Assembly (NCBI RefSeq): GCF_004322855.1 | Contig: NZ_CP036402.1 | Location: forward strand, 2,790,001-2,854,000 | Length of the DNA: 64,000 nucleotides | Direction of reading: 5' to 3' | From: Egibacter rhizosphaerae | Lineage (GTDB): Bacteria; Actinomycetota; Nitriliruptoria; Euzebyales; Egibacteraceae | Shown here: positions 19,273 to 48,017 of the stretch, piece after piece | How positions within the stretch are numbered: the first letter of the stretch is position 1 | Layout of the letters: every line of letters starts with the position of its first letter | Made by a program: the position numbers and the translations under genes | The notes under the pieces: model-generated | Databases searched by the model: none | The model's input: the letters and a program-made list of their open reading frames with translations, nothing else | What the model was told of the DNA's origin: nothing

Positions 19273-20034
19273 ATGACCCAGAGCCAGACACCCGACGAGC
19301 CCCGCGTCGCCGTCGTGACCGGCGCCGGGCAGGGCCTCGGCAAGGCGATCGCGGCCTCCTTGCAGGACTCCGGACACCGGGTCGCGCTCGTGGATCTCGA
19401 TGCCGACGCCGCGAAGGCCGCCGCGCACGAGCTCGATCCGTCCGAGCAGGCGACCATGGCCGTGTCCGCCGACGTGGGCGATCGGGAGGCGTTCGCGCAC
19501 GCGCTGGACGAGGTCGGCGCGCGCTGGCGGCGCGTGGACGTGCTCGTCAACAACGCGGCCGCCTCGGTGATGCGGAGTTTCTGGGCGATCGAGCCCGAGG
19601 AGTGGGATCACGTGCTCGGGGTGAACCTGCGCAGCGTGTTCCTCGGCTGTCAGCTCGCCGGTCCGCTCATGCGCGAGGGGGGATGGGGCCGCATCATCAA
19701 CCTCTCCTCGATCGCCGGCCAGCAGGGCGGCGCGGTGATGGGTGCGCACTACGCGGCGTCGAAGGCCGGGATCCTCGTGCTGACCAAGATCGTGGCGCAG
19801 GAGCTCGCCGGATCCGGCGTGACCGTCAACGCGCTCGCGCCGGCGGCGATCGACAGTCCCCTCCTGCAAGGGCTCGGTGACGACGCGATCGAGTCACTGG
19901 CCGACAAGATCCCGGTCGGGCGGGTCGGGCGCCCCGAGGAGGTCGGCGCGCTCGCGGCCTTCCTCGCCTCGGAGGACGCCGGCTACATCACCGGCGCGAC
20001 GCTGGACATCAACGGCGGGTTGCACATGCGCTGA
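19273..20034 (+). CDS. Short-chain dehydrogenase/reductase
   Basis: The 253-residue classical SDR has an intact TGAGQGLG cofactor motif (residues 16-23), NNAA, the catalytic Ser in NLSSIAG and YAASK, and a C-terminal GATLDINGG. It resembles 3-oxoacyl-(ACP/CoA) reductases and sugar or alcohol dehydrogenases. ATG 19273 follows AAGGAGGGG. It is separated from the acyl-CoA dehydrogenase by the terminator-like repeats, so it may be transcribed independently. Confidence 0.9.
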   Translation: MTQSQTPDEPRVAVVTGAGQGLGKAIAASLQDSGHRVALVDLDADAAKAAAHELDPSEQATMAVSADVGDREAFAHALDEVGARWRRVDVLVNNAAASVMRSFWAIEPEEWDHVLGVNLRSVFLGCQLAGPLMREGGWGRIINLSSIAGQQGGAVMGAHYAASKAGILVLTKIVAQELAGSGVTVNALAPAAIDSPLLQGLGDDAIESLADKIPVGRVGRPEEVGALAAFLASEDAGYITGATLDINGGLHMR

Positions 20035-42116: not shown

Positions 42117-42605
42117 GTGGCTGAGCTCAGCCACGTCTACAACCGCGACATCCTGATCGGGTCGATCGCGGCGACGATCGCGACGGCGATCACCGCGCTC
42201 AGCCGCTTCGCGTTGTTCTTCGGAGGCGACGAGGACGCGAACCCGATCGCGCAGATCGCGATGATCCTGCTCGCGCCGATCGCGGCGATCCTCATCCAGT
42301 TCGCGGTCACCCGCAGCCGCGAGACGCAGGCCGACACGAGCGGCGCGGACCTGTCCGGCAAGCCCCTGGCGCTGGCGAGCGCGCTCCGGAAGCTCGAGGC
42401 CGGCGGCAAGGAGCTCGCCCGGCGCGGGGTCGGCGGCACGCCGGCGGAGCAGCCGAACAACGCGTTCTCGAGCCTCTACATCTCGGCGCCCTTCGGTGGC
42501 GCGGTTCGTGGCGGCCTGGGCAACGCCTTCCGCACGCACCCCAAGACCGAGGACCGCGTGCGCAACCTGGAACAGCTCGCTCGCCGCATGGGCCAGATGG
42601 CGTAG
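42117..42605 (+). pseudogene. Truncated HtpX-type membrane metalloprotease (C-terminal half)
   Basis: The open reading frame gives 162 residues that match the second half of HtpX: ELSHVYNRDILIGSIAA, two hydrophobic segments, the third zinc ligand in SRETQAD, and LASALRKLEAG to RTHPKTEDRV. The first half is absent, and the cut lies in the zinc motif itself: HELSH has become AELSH (GTG GCT GAG CTC AGC CAC). Only about 220 bases separate it from the divergent aminotransferase, so the missing 120 residues are not nearby. GTG 42117 is the only start near CGGAGG. It cannot bind zinc normally, so it is called a pseudogene or remnant. Confidence 0.8.
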
Positions 42606-42632
42606 CTCGCCGCGTGCTCGAAGCGGACACGG

Positions 42633-42671
42633 ACGATGCCGGCCCGTGGGGAACCCACGGGCCGGCATCGT
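42633..42671. terminator. Perfect 18-bp hairpin between convergent genes
   Basis: Bases 42633-42650 pair perfectly with 42654-42671 across a GAA loop. The right arm abuts the stop codon of the yajQ-like gene. It is a very strong terminator candidate for both strands, with no T-run. Confidence 0.8.
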
Positions 42672-43159
42672 CAGTTGTAGTTGGTGAACTTGATCGGCAG
42701 GTCCTGGTCGTTGTTGCGCAACAGCGTCTGGCACTCCTGGAGCGCGTCCTTCGACTTGCTCGAGATGCGCAACTGATCGCCCTGGATGCTGGGCGTCACC
42801 TTCAGCTTGCTCGCCTTGATCTGCTTGACCATCGCCTTGGCCTTGTCCTGGGGGATGCCCTCGACGAGGCCGATGTCGAGGCGGTACGTGCCTTTCGCGG
42901 CGGGCTGCGGTCGGTCGTGGTCGAGCGACTTGAGGCTCACCTTGCGCTTCACGAGCTTGTCCTTGAGCACGTCGAGGGCGGCATCGACGCGGTCCTCGGA
43001 GTTCGTGGTGATCGCGATGCCGTCGCCCGACCAGGCGATCTCGGCATTCGCGCCCTTGAAATCGAAGCGCTGCCCGACCTCCTTGGCGGCCTGGTTGATC
43101 GCGTTGTCGACCTCCTGACGGTCGGTCTCGGCGACCACGTCGAAGCTGTTCTCGGCCAT
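42671..43159 (-). CDS. yajQ: YajQ family nucleotide-binding protein
   Basis: The 162-residue protein is typical for YajQ (DUF520): it begins MAENSFDVVAETDRQEVDNAINQA and ends LPIKFTNYN. Members bind nucleotides, and some bind cyclic di-GMP. ATG 43159 follows AAGGAG. It stands alone upstream of the tRNA-Tyr gene on the opposite strand. Confidence 0.93.
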   Translation of the reverse strand: MAENSFDVVAETDRQEVDNAINQAAKEVGQRFDFKGANAEIAWSGDGIAITTNSEDRVDAALDVLKDKLVKRKVSLKSLDHDRPQPAAKGTYRLDIGLVEGIPQDKAKAMVKQIKASKLKVTPSIQGDQLRISSKSKDALQECQTLLRNNDQDLPIKFTNYN

Positions 43160-43239
43160 GCGCGACTCCTTCTCCATGCCGATGTCCGCGAGTCCTTCAC
43201 GGCAGGATAGTGACGAGCTCTCGCGCGGGCCCGCCCTGG

Positions 43240-43268
43240 TTGCGGGGGGTGCGGGCCGGGCCTAGCAT
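43240..43268 (+). promoter_or_regulatory. Promoter of tRNA-Tyr
   Basis: TTGCGG (43240-43245) and TAGCAT (43263-43268) are spaced by 17 bases, and the mature tRNA starts at 43280. The spacing fits a strong housekeeping promoter. Confidence 0.6.
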
Positions 43269-43279
43269 TCCGACGTCCT

Positions 43280-43362
43280 GGTGGGTTGCCCGAGCGGCCA
43301 AAGGGAGCGGACTGTAAATCCGCCGGCTTATGCCTACGAAGGTTCGAATCCTTCACCCACCA
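43280..43362 (+). tRNA. tRNA-Tyr (GTA)
   Basis: The acceptor arms GGTGGGT and ACCCACC pair, the anticodon GTA lies at 43314-43316, and there is a long variable arm as expected for this class II tRNA. The discriminator is A43362 and CCA is not encoded. The 3' half overlaps a minus-strand protein frame (stop at 43334-43336). Confidence 0.96.
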
Positions 43363-45547
43363 CCCCAGGTGCCGCCGGATCCTCTCCGGCGGCGTTCTCG
43401 TGTGACCGCTGCGACTGTGACCCCGGCGACGCCACGACCGAGTGCAGGTGCGCGAGCGACTCGGGCAGCCGCACAGCCCCTCGCGCGGTGCCGTCATCCG
43501 CGGGCAGGCTCCGCGCGAGCCAGCGCCCGCCCCACGCCGTCGCGCCGTCGTCCCGGGTGCCCAGCTCGAGGCCGAGCGGTCCGGGCTCCTCGAACCCGAA
43601 CTGCTCCAGGAAGTCCACCGGGCCGGCGGCGACGATCCGGTGCGCCCCGAACGCTGCCGCGATGTTCGTCGCGCGCTTGACCAGCCGACCGCCGATGCCC
43701 TGGCGTTGGCGGTCGGGGCGCACGGCGATGGGGGCCACCGCGAGCACGCGGCCGTCAGGTGGCGGCACCCCGGGTGGGGCTGTCGCGCTGGGCCCGAGCC
43801 CGATCGGGACCAGGAGCGCGTGTGCGACGACTTCGCCGTCCTCCTCGACGACGAGGGAGTGGACCGACTCGGTGTCGGACCCCGTGCGGAGCGACTCGAC
43901 GAGCTCGGCCTCGGCGTCCCGCCCGAACGCCGCTGCCAGGAGATCATGGACCGCCGAGTGGTCCTCGGTTGTCTCGGCGCGCATGATGCGCCCGTCGATG
44001 GTGCGGGGGCGTCGGGCGGCGGCGTCCGCCACCTCGGCCAGGCGCACGAGCTCGCGCCTGCCCTCGTCGACGGCGATGTCGATCAGCGCGGGATCGTCTC
44101 CGCCGCCGGGCGAGCGCGCGATGTGCAGCTCCAGTGTCGCGAGGCGACGACGGCGCTGGAACGGCGTCGCCGACAGCGCGATGCCCTGGAGCGAGCGCTC
44201 GGGCGTCACATGGGTCGTGCGGACGAACACACCGGAGCGGGCGACGATCGCCTGCGGCAGGCGGGCGCGTCCCAGCGCGCGATAGGACGAGCGACCGAGC
44301 AGCGCGAACGGCACGGCGAGTGCCAGCCCCGCCACACCCGCCGGGCCCTGCCACACGAGCAGGCCGACCGTCGCCGCCAGCGTTGCCAACGCGGCCCGGA
44401 CGTCGCGGCGGTGTCGCGCACCGATCGGGGCCGGTGTGAGCTCGACGCCGGCCACGTCGTCCCGCCCGGTGATGCGATCGACGAGCGCGAAGGCCTCTTG
44501 CCGGGTGCCGATCGGCAACACCGTGCTCGTGTCGCTGGCCTCGCCGGCGGCGCGTCCGGCGACCTCGACCTTCACGGTGGCTCGTCCGAGGGGGCGTCGC
44601 AGCAGGTTCTCCTCGACCCGCAGGGACTGCAGGCGGTACAGCGGGATCGTGCCCGAACGCTGCTCCAGCAGGCCCCGTGTGGTGTGCAGCCGCCGGTCGG
44701 CGGCGCTGAGCCGGAAGTCCCAGTAGGCGAAGACCGTCGCAACGACCGAGAGGACGAACACCGCGAGGAGGAACCCCCCGACCGCCATCACGATCCCCAC
44801 CCAGCCCTGCGCACCGAAGAACTGGGTGACCTGCTCGACCACCGGGTCGATCTGCTCGGCGAACAGCTGGGAGGCGAAGCCGAGCAGGGCCGCGACGACA
44901 CCGACACGGCCCCCGGTCAGGCCCGCGAGCACGAGGTCGCCGGGCCGCATGCGCACGAGTTCGTCATCGCCCCCCTGGTCGTCGGCGTCGGTGTCGGCGG
45001 ACGCGGCGGGGCGCGGCGTGCTGGGGCGCCCGACGAGTTCGGTGCGCACGAGGTCCGCGATCTCCGGATCGAGCGCGTCGAGTTGGCCCTCGGTCGTGCC
45101 GCCCCCCACCGACTCGACGCGCAGCTCCACGACGCCGAAGAGGCGGTGACGCAGCCGACGGATCCGCTCGACCGACTGGATCCGCTCGCGGGGGATGACC
45201 CGACGTTGGCGCTGGAGGAGTCCTTGCTCGATGACGAGCGACTCCGCGTCGATGTGCCAGGTGAACCGCCACCATCGGACCCCCGAGGAGACGAGCGCCC
45301 CGACGATCACGATCGCCGCGAAGGCCGGGGCGACGGTCCCGGCGATGATCAACAGGATGATCGGGCCCGCGCTCGACAAGGCCCACACGCCCAGCGCGCC
45401 GATGTGCAGGCGTTGGCGTCCGCGCAGCACGGCCTGCGCCGGGGGCGTCGGGACCTGCGGCCACACGGTCGGTCCGGAGCCTGCGCTCCGCCGGGTCGAC
45501 GCGCCCGCGGGGTCTCCCCCTGGTGGGGTCGGGGTTGGACGGCTCAC
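43334..45547 (-). CDS. Membrane protein with three bacterial PH domains (YdbT-like) fused to a GNAT acetyltransferase
   Basis: The 737-residue frame begins with a hydrophobic pair and three bPH2-type domains, each followed by a family block (RRVIPRERIQSVERI, SGTIPLYRLQSLRVEEN, THVTPERSLQGIALSATPF), with more membrane segments between them. From about residue 522 (Met, codon at 43984) the frame continues without a stop into a GNAT domain with acetyl-CoA motif RPDRQRQGIGGRLV. It may be a genuine fusion or the result of a lost stop. The last ten or so codons lie antisense within the tRNA-Tyr gene (ending GEGFEPS), so the true C-terminus is set by the tRNA sequence. GTG 45547 follows the next PH gene's stop by 1 base. 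Confidence 0.75.
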   Translation of the reverse strand: MSRPTPTPPGGDPAGASTRRSAGSGPTVWPQVPTPPAQAVLRGRQRLHIGALGVWALSSAGPIILLIIAGTVAPAFAAIVIVGALVSSGVRWWRFTWHIDAESLVIEQGLLQRQRRVIPRERIQSVERIRRLRHRLFGVVELRVESVGGGTTEGQLDALDPEIADLVRTELVGRPSTPRPAASADTDADDQGGDDELVRMRPGDLVLAGLTGGRVGVVAALLGFASQLFAEQIDPVVEQVTQFFGAQGWVGIVMAVGGFLLAVFVLSVVATVFAYWDFRLSAADRRLHTTRGLLEQRSGTIPLYRLQSLRVEENLLRRPLGRATVKVEVAGRAAGEASDTSTVLPIGTRQEAFALVDRITGRDDVAGVELTPAPIGARHRRDVRAALATLAATVGLLVWQGPAGVAGLALAVPFALLGRSSYRALGRARLPQAIVARSGVFVRTTHVTPERSLQGIALSATPFQRRRRLATLELHIARSPGGGDDPALIDIAVDEGRRELVRLAEVADAAARRPRTIDGRIMRAETTEDHSAVHDLLAAAFGRDAEAELVESLRTGSDTESVHSLVVEEDGEVVAHALLVPIGLGPSATAPPGVPPPDGRVLAVAPIAVRPDRQRQGIGGRLVKRATNIAAAFGAHRIVAAGPVDFLEQFGFEEPGPLGLELGTRDDGATAWGGRWLARSLPADDGTARGAVRLPESLAHLHSVVASPGSQSQRSHENAAGEDPAAPGVVGEGFEPS

Positions 45548-45548
45548 G

Positions 45549-46109
45549 TCAGACCGCGAGGATGTCGGCTTCGACGGACGCCAGGCGCTCGCGCAGGCGT
45601 TCGGCCTCGGCCGAGTCCAGTCCCGGCAACTGGCCGCTCGTGCCGAGTGCCGCCGTGTGCACCACGAGCTGGGCAAGCCCGAACAGTCGGTCCAGGGGCC
45701 CGGCCCGCGTGTCGACGAACTGCAGCCGGGCGTAGGGGATGACGCTCACGTTGCGCCAGAAGACGCCGTGGCGGATCCACAGGTCGCGTTCGCGCAGCGC
45801 GTACCCCCACCGGCGGTAGCGGATGATGGGTAGCACGATCGCCAGCGCGGTCCCCCCGGCCAGGACCGCGCCCGTGAGGAGGCCGGTCGGGGTGGGCAGC
45901 GGCGCGAGCAGGTCGACGACCCCGGCCACGATCACCCCTTGGAGCACGAAGATGAACCCGGTCAGCCACCACACCTTGCGCACGCGTGGGTCGAGTGGGA
46001 CGAGCTCGGGGATCCCGTCACCGGTGCCGGGATCGGCATCCGGCAGCGAAGGTGGACCGGCCGGTGCGTCGGCGGCCTCGGCGGTGGGAGGGGGCTCCTG
46101 AGCGTCCAT
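45549..46109 (-). CDS. Bacterial PH-domain membrane protein (YdbS-like)
   Basis: The 186-residue protein has a Pro/Asp-rich N-terminus, two membrane segments and one bPH2 domain (YALRERDLWIRHGVFWRNVSVIPYARLQFVDTRAGPL, read in pieces). YdbS/YdbT-type pairs occur in many actinobacteria and firmicutes with unclear roles, some linked to resistance. ATG 46109 has GGAG five bases upstream. Its stop is one base from the start of the larger PH gene, so translation is coupled. Confidence 0.87.
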   Translation of the reverse strand: MDAQEPPPTAEAADAPAGPPSLPDADPGTGDGIPELVPLDPRVRKVWWLTGFIFVLQGVIVAGVVDLLAPLPTPTGLLTGAVLAGGTALAIVLPIIRYRRWGYALRERDLWIRHGVFWRNVSVIPYARLQFVDTRAGPLDRLFGLAQLVVHTAALGTSGQLPGLDSAEAERLRERLASVEADILAV

Positions 46110-46135
46110 CACCTCTCCAGCCTATGCGGCCCAGG

Positions 46136-46164
46136 TTGCAGGGCATGGGGCCCCATTCCATACT
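46136..46164 (+). promoter_or_regulatory. Promoter of tRNA-Thr (and probably tRNA-Met, tuf)
   Basis: TTGCAG (46136-46141) and CATACT (46159-46164) are spaced by 17 bases, 12 bases before the mature tRNA-Thr. No other clear promoter occurs before tuf, so one transcript may carry both tRNAs and tuf. Confidence 0.55.
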
Positions 46165-46175
46165 GTCGGGGGCTC

Positions 46176-46248
46176 GCCCCCCTAGCTCAGTCGGCAGAGC
46201 GACTCCATGGTAAGGAGTAGGTCAGCGGTTCGATTCCGCTGGGGGGCT
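46176..46248 (+). tRNA. tRNA-Thr (GGT)
   Basis: The acceptor GCCCCCC pairs with GGGGGGC. The anticodon loop ATGGTAA is between ACTCC and GGAGT, giving GGT. The T-arm is GCGGTTCGATTCCGC and the discriminator is T; CCA is not encoded. Confidence 0.96.
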
Positions 46249-46331
46249 CGAGTCACCGCGCGAGTACACATCCGACTGGTTCGATGGGTAGGCTCCCGGT
46301 GGCGCGGTCGCCCGCGGGCGACCGCCGTGCC

Positions 46332-46403
46332 GGCGGCGTAGCTCAGGGGCAGAGCACTCGGCTCATAATCGAGTAGTCGGTGGTTCGAATCCACCCGCCG
46401 CCA
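46332..46403 (+). tRNA. tRNA-Met (CAT), elongator type
   Basis: The acceptor GGCGGCG pairs with CGCCGCC, the loop CTCATAA between CTCGG and TCGAG gives CAT, and the T-arm is GGTGGTTCGAATCCACC. The first base pair G-C, without the mismatch of initiators, indicates an elongator tRNA. CCA is not encoded. Confidence 0.95.
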
Positions 46404-46433
46404 CGACGCCCGCAACTGCACCTGGGCGCTCCG

Positions 46434-46459
46434 CCAGGGACCCGCACCCGGGTCCCTGG
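46434..46459 (+). terminator. 10-bp hairpin between tRNA-Met and tuf
   Basis: CCAGGGACCC (46434-46443) pairs perfectly with GGGTCCCTGG (46450-46459) across GCACCC. It could end tRNA transcription, attenuate tuf or be a processing signal. The 155-base gap has no gene. Confidence 0.5.
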
Positions 46460-46558
46460 TCGCGTGCGTCGTGCCACCCCCACCGCGGCGAGCGCGGAGG
46501 CCGGGACGACACACCCGCACCCGACCCTTGCCCCGAAACCTCGAGAGGACCACGACCC

Positions 46559-47746
<1,188 letters not shown>

Positions 47747-47852
47747 GCGCGGCTGTCGGGTCGGGGGCTGGTGGGCTCTCGACCCGGCGGCCGCGGCGCC
47801 ACCCGCGGCGCGAGCGCGCTGCCGACGAACACGAGAGCAGGGAAGGCCCGAC

Positions 47853-48017
47853 ATGCCGAAAAGCGACACCCGTCCCCACGTGACGCTTGCCTGTACCGAG
47901 TGTCGCGAGCGCAACTACACGACGACCAAGAACCGCCACAAGCAGCGCGAGCGGCTCGAGATGCGCAAGCACTGCCCCCGCTGCAAACAGCACCGCCCCC
48001 ACCGCGAGACCAAGTAG
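47853..48017 (+). CDS. rpmG: 50S ribosomal protein L33
   Basis: The 54-residue protein begins [22 protein letters not shown] and has two CxxC pairs (CTEC and CPRC) that bind zinc. ATG 47853 has AGGGAAGG upstream. It occupies the usual actinobacterial place before the had/secE genes. It is too small for a long-frame scan but every codon fits the family. Confidence 0.96.

Follow-up and report, generated by a model that had tools for sequence, protein, structure and literature searches.

The window analysed here is a 64,000-nucleotide stretch of the Egibacter rhizosphaerae genome, which is a single contig of 4.64 Mb. Its minus strand carries one open reading frame (43334–45547) of 737 sense codons, with a GTG start and a TAG stop at 43336–43334. 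Pfam recognizes in this frame three bPH_2 stretches (PF03703, 1e-34) and one GNAT domain (PF00583, 1.1e-11; residues 534–652, 45.5 bits against a cut-off of 20.7), and a search of NCBIfam with the fusion protein returned no family. Coordinates and Pfam thus agree with the initial annotation, which had described a single continuous frame for three PH domains and an acetyltransferase, stopping within a tRNA gene. The frame can be divided into four parts, all on the minus strand: a YdbT-like part with three bPH_2 domains and putative membrane helices (residues 1–505, 44033–45547; delimited by Pfam, orthologues, hydrophobic segments and the structural model), a linker (residues 506–520, 43988–44032), a YhbS-type GNAT domain with an internal ATG at 43984 (residues 521–704, 43436–43987; delimited by Pfam, fold and sequence relatives) and a tail (residues 705–737, 43337–43435). 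The stop codon lies within a convergent tRNA-Tyr (GTA) gene on the plus strand (43280–43362 by Rfam, 43279–43365 by ARAGORN), and directly behind this gene is a plus-strand GC-rich hairpin (43371–43393) that the tail reads as codons. On the other side the frame is preceded, also on the minus strand, by a YdbS-like partner gene (45549–46112; 187 aa, one bPH_2 domain, PF03703, 4.3e-20) whose stop comes 1 nt before the GTG.

The portions of PMC8657885 used here describe YdbS as a membrane protein with one PH domain and YdbT as one with three, and report that in Enterococcus the transport of a leaderless bacteriocin depends on both of their relatives, DdE and DdF. The window pair resembles Bacillus subtilis YdbS/YdbT and Enterococcus faecalis 14 DdE/DdF, as presented in those portions, in being encoded by neighbouring genes for proteins with one versus three bPH_2 domains and in the hydrophobic segments of the larger protein. 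YdbT-like proteins are characterized by six transmembrane helices and a role in transport or resistance; on a simple scale the YdbT-like part of the window protein has four hydrophobic stretches, two of them exceeding one helix, and long helices appear in the model. It differs from both systems, so far as the same portions of PMC8657885 go, in the C-terminal GNAT domain and the run-on tail that have been added.

To judge how unusual the fusion is, 66 genomes of the class were compared, many of them incomplete. Any match to the fusion protein was found in 52 of these and none in 14, but a match running from the PH part into the GNAT core was seen in just two, the window genome and G001, which belongs to the same family but another genus. 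The G001 protein, 713 aa long, comes from a single frame in which the domains follow in the same order uninterrupted by a stop; its identity with the window protein is 263/466 in the PH part, 6/15 in the linker and 67/162 in the GNAT domain. As the fusion is common to G001 it is more than chance, and an assembly error at the PH–GNAT join is unlikely because G001 has this join too. One further match, in G035, extends to residue 536, but across a stop. Within the order (30 genomes) there are 13 others with clear PH matches (G019, G011, G020, G002, G003, G018, G009, G015, G027, G021, G023, G028 and G026), none of which goes beyond query residue 521, and further genomes have weak matches only. G017, from the genus of G001, stands outside the comparison (it is 76% complete and its yajQ contig begins 140 bases before yajQ), and a scan of genome contigs gave a single distant PH match (L001). 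The initial annotation had called the fusion uncommon and had named relatives with two genes as one of two observations that would speak against it. The count of two genomes in 66 bears out the first point, and no such relatives were seen: the G001 gene is continuous, while the remaining orthologues found stop short of the GNAT core. The PH alignments (A1 and A4) comprise 19 of the 27 processed PH loci, two having been dropped for a wrong frame or an in-frame stop (L014 and L026) and six by choice (L022, L024, L025, L028, L030 and L032); A1 placed the N-terminal ends of free-standing GNATs wrongly, opposite the PH region, and the GNAT domain was analysed with A2. The PH gene of G009 has an in-frame TAG in the first PH domain (L014:1723–1725), indicating either a pseudogene or an assembly error, and that of G015 falls into three matches in differing frames (L020, L035 and L039; G015:C24:67176–68929), which suggests frameshifts.

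A wider sample of 296 genomes of the phylum gave 30 matches to the GNAT part at 1e-9, in 28 genomes. The longest open frame among these, apart from the window genome (G000) and G001, is 494 aa, which is too short for YdbT plus GNAT, so no further PH–GNAT fusion is present among those matches. Three of the frames exceed 450 aa and hold other domains, a STAS domain in L060 and a methyltransferase domain in L061 and L062, indicating that the YhbS-like type of GNAT joins various partners; as in the window protein, the GNAT domain there is C-terminal to another domain, although the partner domains are different. No published YdbT–acetyltransferase fusion was among the matches listed in searches of the literature. 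Among 19 GNAT domains placed in a tree, those of the window protein and G001 pair with support of 99/98, which fits one fusion event; the end branches of both are long (0.8 and 1.32), and rapid evolution may have contributed to the pairing. The fusion is genuine and rare, and lies within known kinds, joining one half of a YdbS/YdbT-like membrane pair to a YhbS-type GNAT.

The best matches of the GNAT domain, both in a fold search and by sequence, are E. coli YhbS with CoA (PDB 4rs2, 6.8e-12 in the fold search) and a Brucella melitensis GNAT with acetyl-CoA (PDB 4zbg, 3.2e-10). When modelled by itself the domain is predicted with pLDDT above 85 in most blocks; in the whole-protein model, for which the alignment had only two fused rows, confidence is lower (57–79 in most blocks). 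Like these two relatives the window protein has the acetyl-CoA P-loop, Q614-R-Q-G-I-G619 (43691–43708, minus strand), and this fits the consensus Gln/Arg-x-x-Gly-x-Gly/Ala quoted from the part of PMC4964394 consulted, but the corresponding EGEGVD of G001 is off that consensus at two positions. Apart from its place behind a membrane PH protein, the domain differs from 4rs2 and 4zbg at the position two before RFGF in the YxRFGF motif, where both PH-fused GNATs have leucine (Leu647 here; 43607–43609, minus strand) and both structures have tyrosine. Elsewhere the column is Tyr in 16 of 17 homologues and Cys in the remaining one, and the tyrosine is also kept in L060, L061 and L062 and in a free-standing YhbS-like GNAT of 173 aa in the window genome (L003:1525–2046; about 2199193–2199714 of G000:C1), which is not near the fused GNAT in the tree. 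We take this column to be the general-acid tyrosine position of GNATs. The general acid of these enzymes is usually a tyrosine, according to the sections drawn on from PMC6199490 and PMC4964394.

The leucine in both fused GNATs, together with the altered P-loop of G001, suggests that catalysis may have been lost or changed. The leading alternative, which we consider possible but distinctly the less probable reading, is that the fused GNAT is a membrane-tethered enzyme still able to catalyse, whose acetylation target lies close to the membrane. The P-loop of the window protein is intact, the Pfam score is above its cut-off, the fold is confidently predicted and the coding signature is held through the domain (GC3 of 0.91, compared with 0.90 in the PH part). 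Moreover the excerpted text of PMC4964394 lists exceptions among GNATs (one whose tyrosine is not the acid, another for which no acid was found, and a third in which the P-loop is atypical), so that Leu647 is no proof of lost activity. Against a normal enzyme are the replacement of the tyrosine in both fused proteins, the two consensus positions lost in G001 and the lower identity between the two proteins in the GNAT domain than in the PH part.

Separate translation of the GNAT domain from an internal start, the other such observation named in the initial annotation, would make the fusion partly formal. That the domain is made also, or only, as a separate protein is rather improbable. The ATG at 43984 is residue 522, which is where free-standing GNATs begin, and G001 has a GTG at the equivalent place, but neither genome has a stop between the parts, no clear Shine–Dalgarno sequence was seen by eye within 25 bases upstream of either codon, and the linker can be aligned between the two proteins.

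With the Rfam ends, the frame overlaps tRNA-Tyr by 29 bases including the stop, and eight of its codons (V730 to S737) lie wholly within the tRNA gene. The tail as a whole has no counterpart in other GNATs, and the end of the G001 protein is shorter and different. Its GC3 is 0.667, as against 0.788 for the lowest 33-codon stretch of residues 1–704 (mean 0.909), and it is predicted to be disordered in both models, with mean pLDDT per block of ten of 47–56 in the GNAT model and 27–37 across the final three blocks of the whole-protein model. From base composition alone (71% GC) a frame would stay open for 33 codons with a probability of 0.54 and for 24 codons with a probability of 0.63, so the overlap is not beyond chance; the open fractions at 20,000 random window places and frames, followed to the next stop, were 0.70 and 0.76, values that are inflated by real genes. 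All three minus-strand frames are in fact open from the end of the GNAT domain to tRNA-Tyr, and for that reason sequence alone cannot tell whether a frameshift hides an earlier stop.

The C-terminal GFEPS is the antisense of the T arm of tRNA-Tyr, and GFEPS or GFEPP occurs in one antisense frame of all nine distinct tRNA-Tyr genes compared, including that of the window. Seven of the nine have an antisense frame of 100 or more open codons running into the tRNA gene, counting from the previous stop to the tRNA end with no start required, and some of these frames are real genes. The material consulted from PMC8743544 and PMC9710616 treats shadow ORFs along tRNA genes as a recognized type of spurious translation, the AntiFam class. 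The last residues of the window protein are like the shadow ORFs described in that material in being an antisense T arm, but unlike them only the last eight are of this kind and a real protein precedes them: residues 1–704 have homologues and a GC3 of 0.90–0.91, and just the tail fits the class. Two other minus-strand ORFs of the window, 46182–46553 and 46343–47914, terminate within or close to tRNA-Thr and tRNA-Met and have similar tRNA-shadow peptides.

None of the five relatives examined in which the PH gene is convergent with tRNA-Tyr shows the overlap, the gaps being 27 nt in G001, 28 in G018, 29 in G019, 81 in G009 (the copy with the internal TAG) and 951 in G020; in four other loci (L008, L009, L011 and L012) the two genes are co-directional. 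The initial annotation also saw a conflict between the transcription of the two genes; such a conflict is possible, and the five relatives share the convergent arrangement though not the overlap. No CDS–tRNA overlap of this kind was among the matches listed in searches of the literature. Taken literally, the statement that the protein's C-terminal residues are set by the tRNA is true of the last eight, but there is no sign that they matter, and the lack of a counterpart, the weak codon bias and the low predicted order all argue against giving them weight. A functional overlap, through regulation of the tRNA by the antisense end of the mRNA or through some role of the C-terminal residues that the tRNA encodes, is very improbable and was rejected: because the stop is inside the tRNA, a full-length mRNA does have to pass antisense through the 3′ part of that gene, but the overlap is not conserved, the tail shows neither homology nor codon bias nor predicted order, and long antisense frames reach seven of the nine tRNA-Tyr genes compared. 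The stop inside tRNA-Tyr looks like ordinary antisense run-on in GC-rich DNA, and its main message is one of caution about such frames in GC-rich genomes.

The reading that we prefer, which as a whole has a probability of roughly 55%, takes the gene as the YdbT-like half of a YdbS/YdbT-type membrane pair. A YhbS-type GNAT then joined it, most likely in a single event, in an ancestor shared by the window organism and G001, and the frame reaches its end in tRNA-Tyr by running on accidentally for about 33 codons through DNA of 71% GC; the fused genomes behind this reading are two only. On the same reading the pair would, by analogy, probably form a YdbS/YdbT-type complex, with the GNAT domain on the cytosolic side and following the third PH domain on a short linker. 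The window GNAT, with a P-loop that fits the consensus, should have kept acetyl-CoA binding, but it is unlikely to be a normal acetyltransferase because the tyrosine kept by relatives is missing; a weak, altered or non-catalytic acetyl-CoA-binding module, which may have an effect on the membrane complex, seems the better description. A more specific version, that the domain is a retired enzyme which senses acetyl-CoA and so adjusts the YdbS/YdbT complex, we regard as speculative and rather unlikely; if true, it would give a membrane transport or envelope-stress protein a built-in metabolite sensor. As the role of YdbS/YdbT is poorly known, a natural fusion of this kind is useful as a hint at a partner function, either acetyl-CoA binding or acetylation at the membrane.

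Some minor features of the region around tRNA-Tyr should also be noted. Arrival of the GNAT domain by integration at the tRNA 3′ end was considered, but the best copies of the tRNA end in 43366–44600 are no better than those in shuffled sequences. The hairpin at 43371–43393 is only mildly stable relative to shuffles (z −1.53; 18 of 200 as good) and was not listed by the terminator scan. The sole terminator-like site found in 42600–46700 (0.8 expected) is a 19-pair hairpin with a T-rich tail at 42632–42672, which overlaps the end of yajQ and follows a plus-strand ORF ending at 42605. Between the PH gene and tRNA-Tyr extra ORFs are present in G002 (L009:355–1461) and G020 (L007:290–1240), and one of those in G002 (L009:557–967) looks like what we presume to be a PIN-domain (VapC-like) protein. 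This spot may take up insertions.
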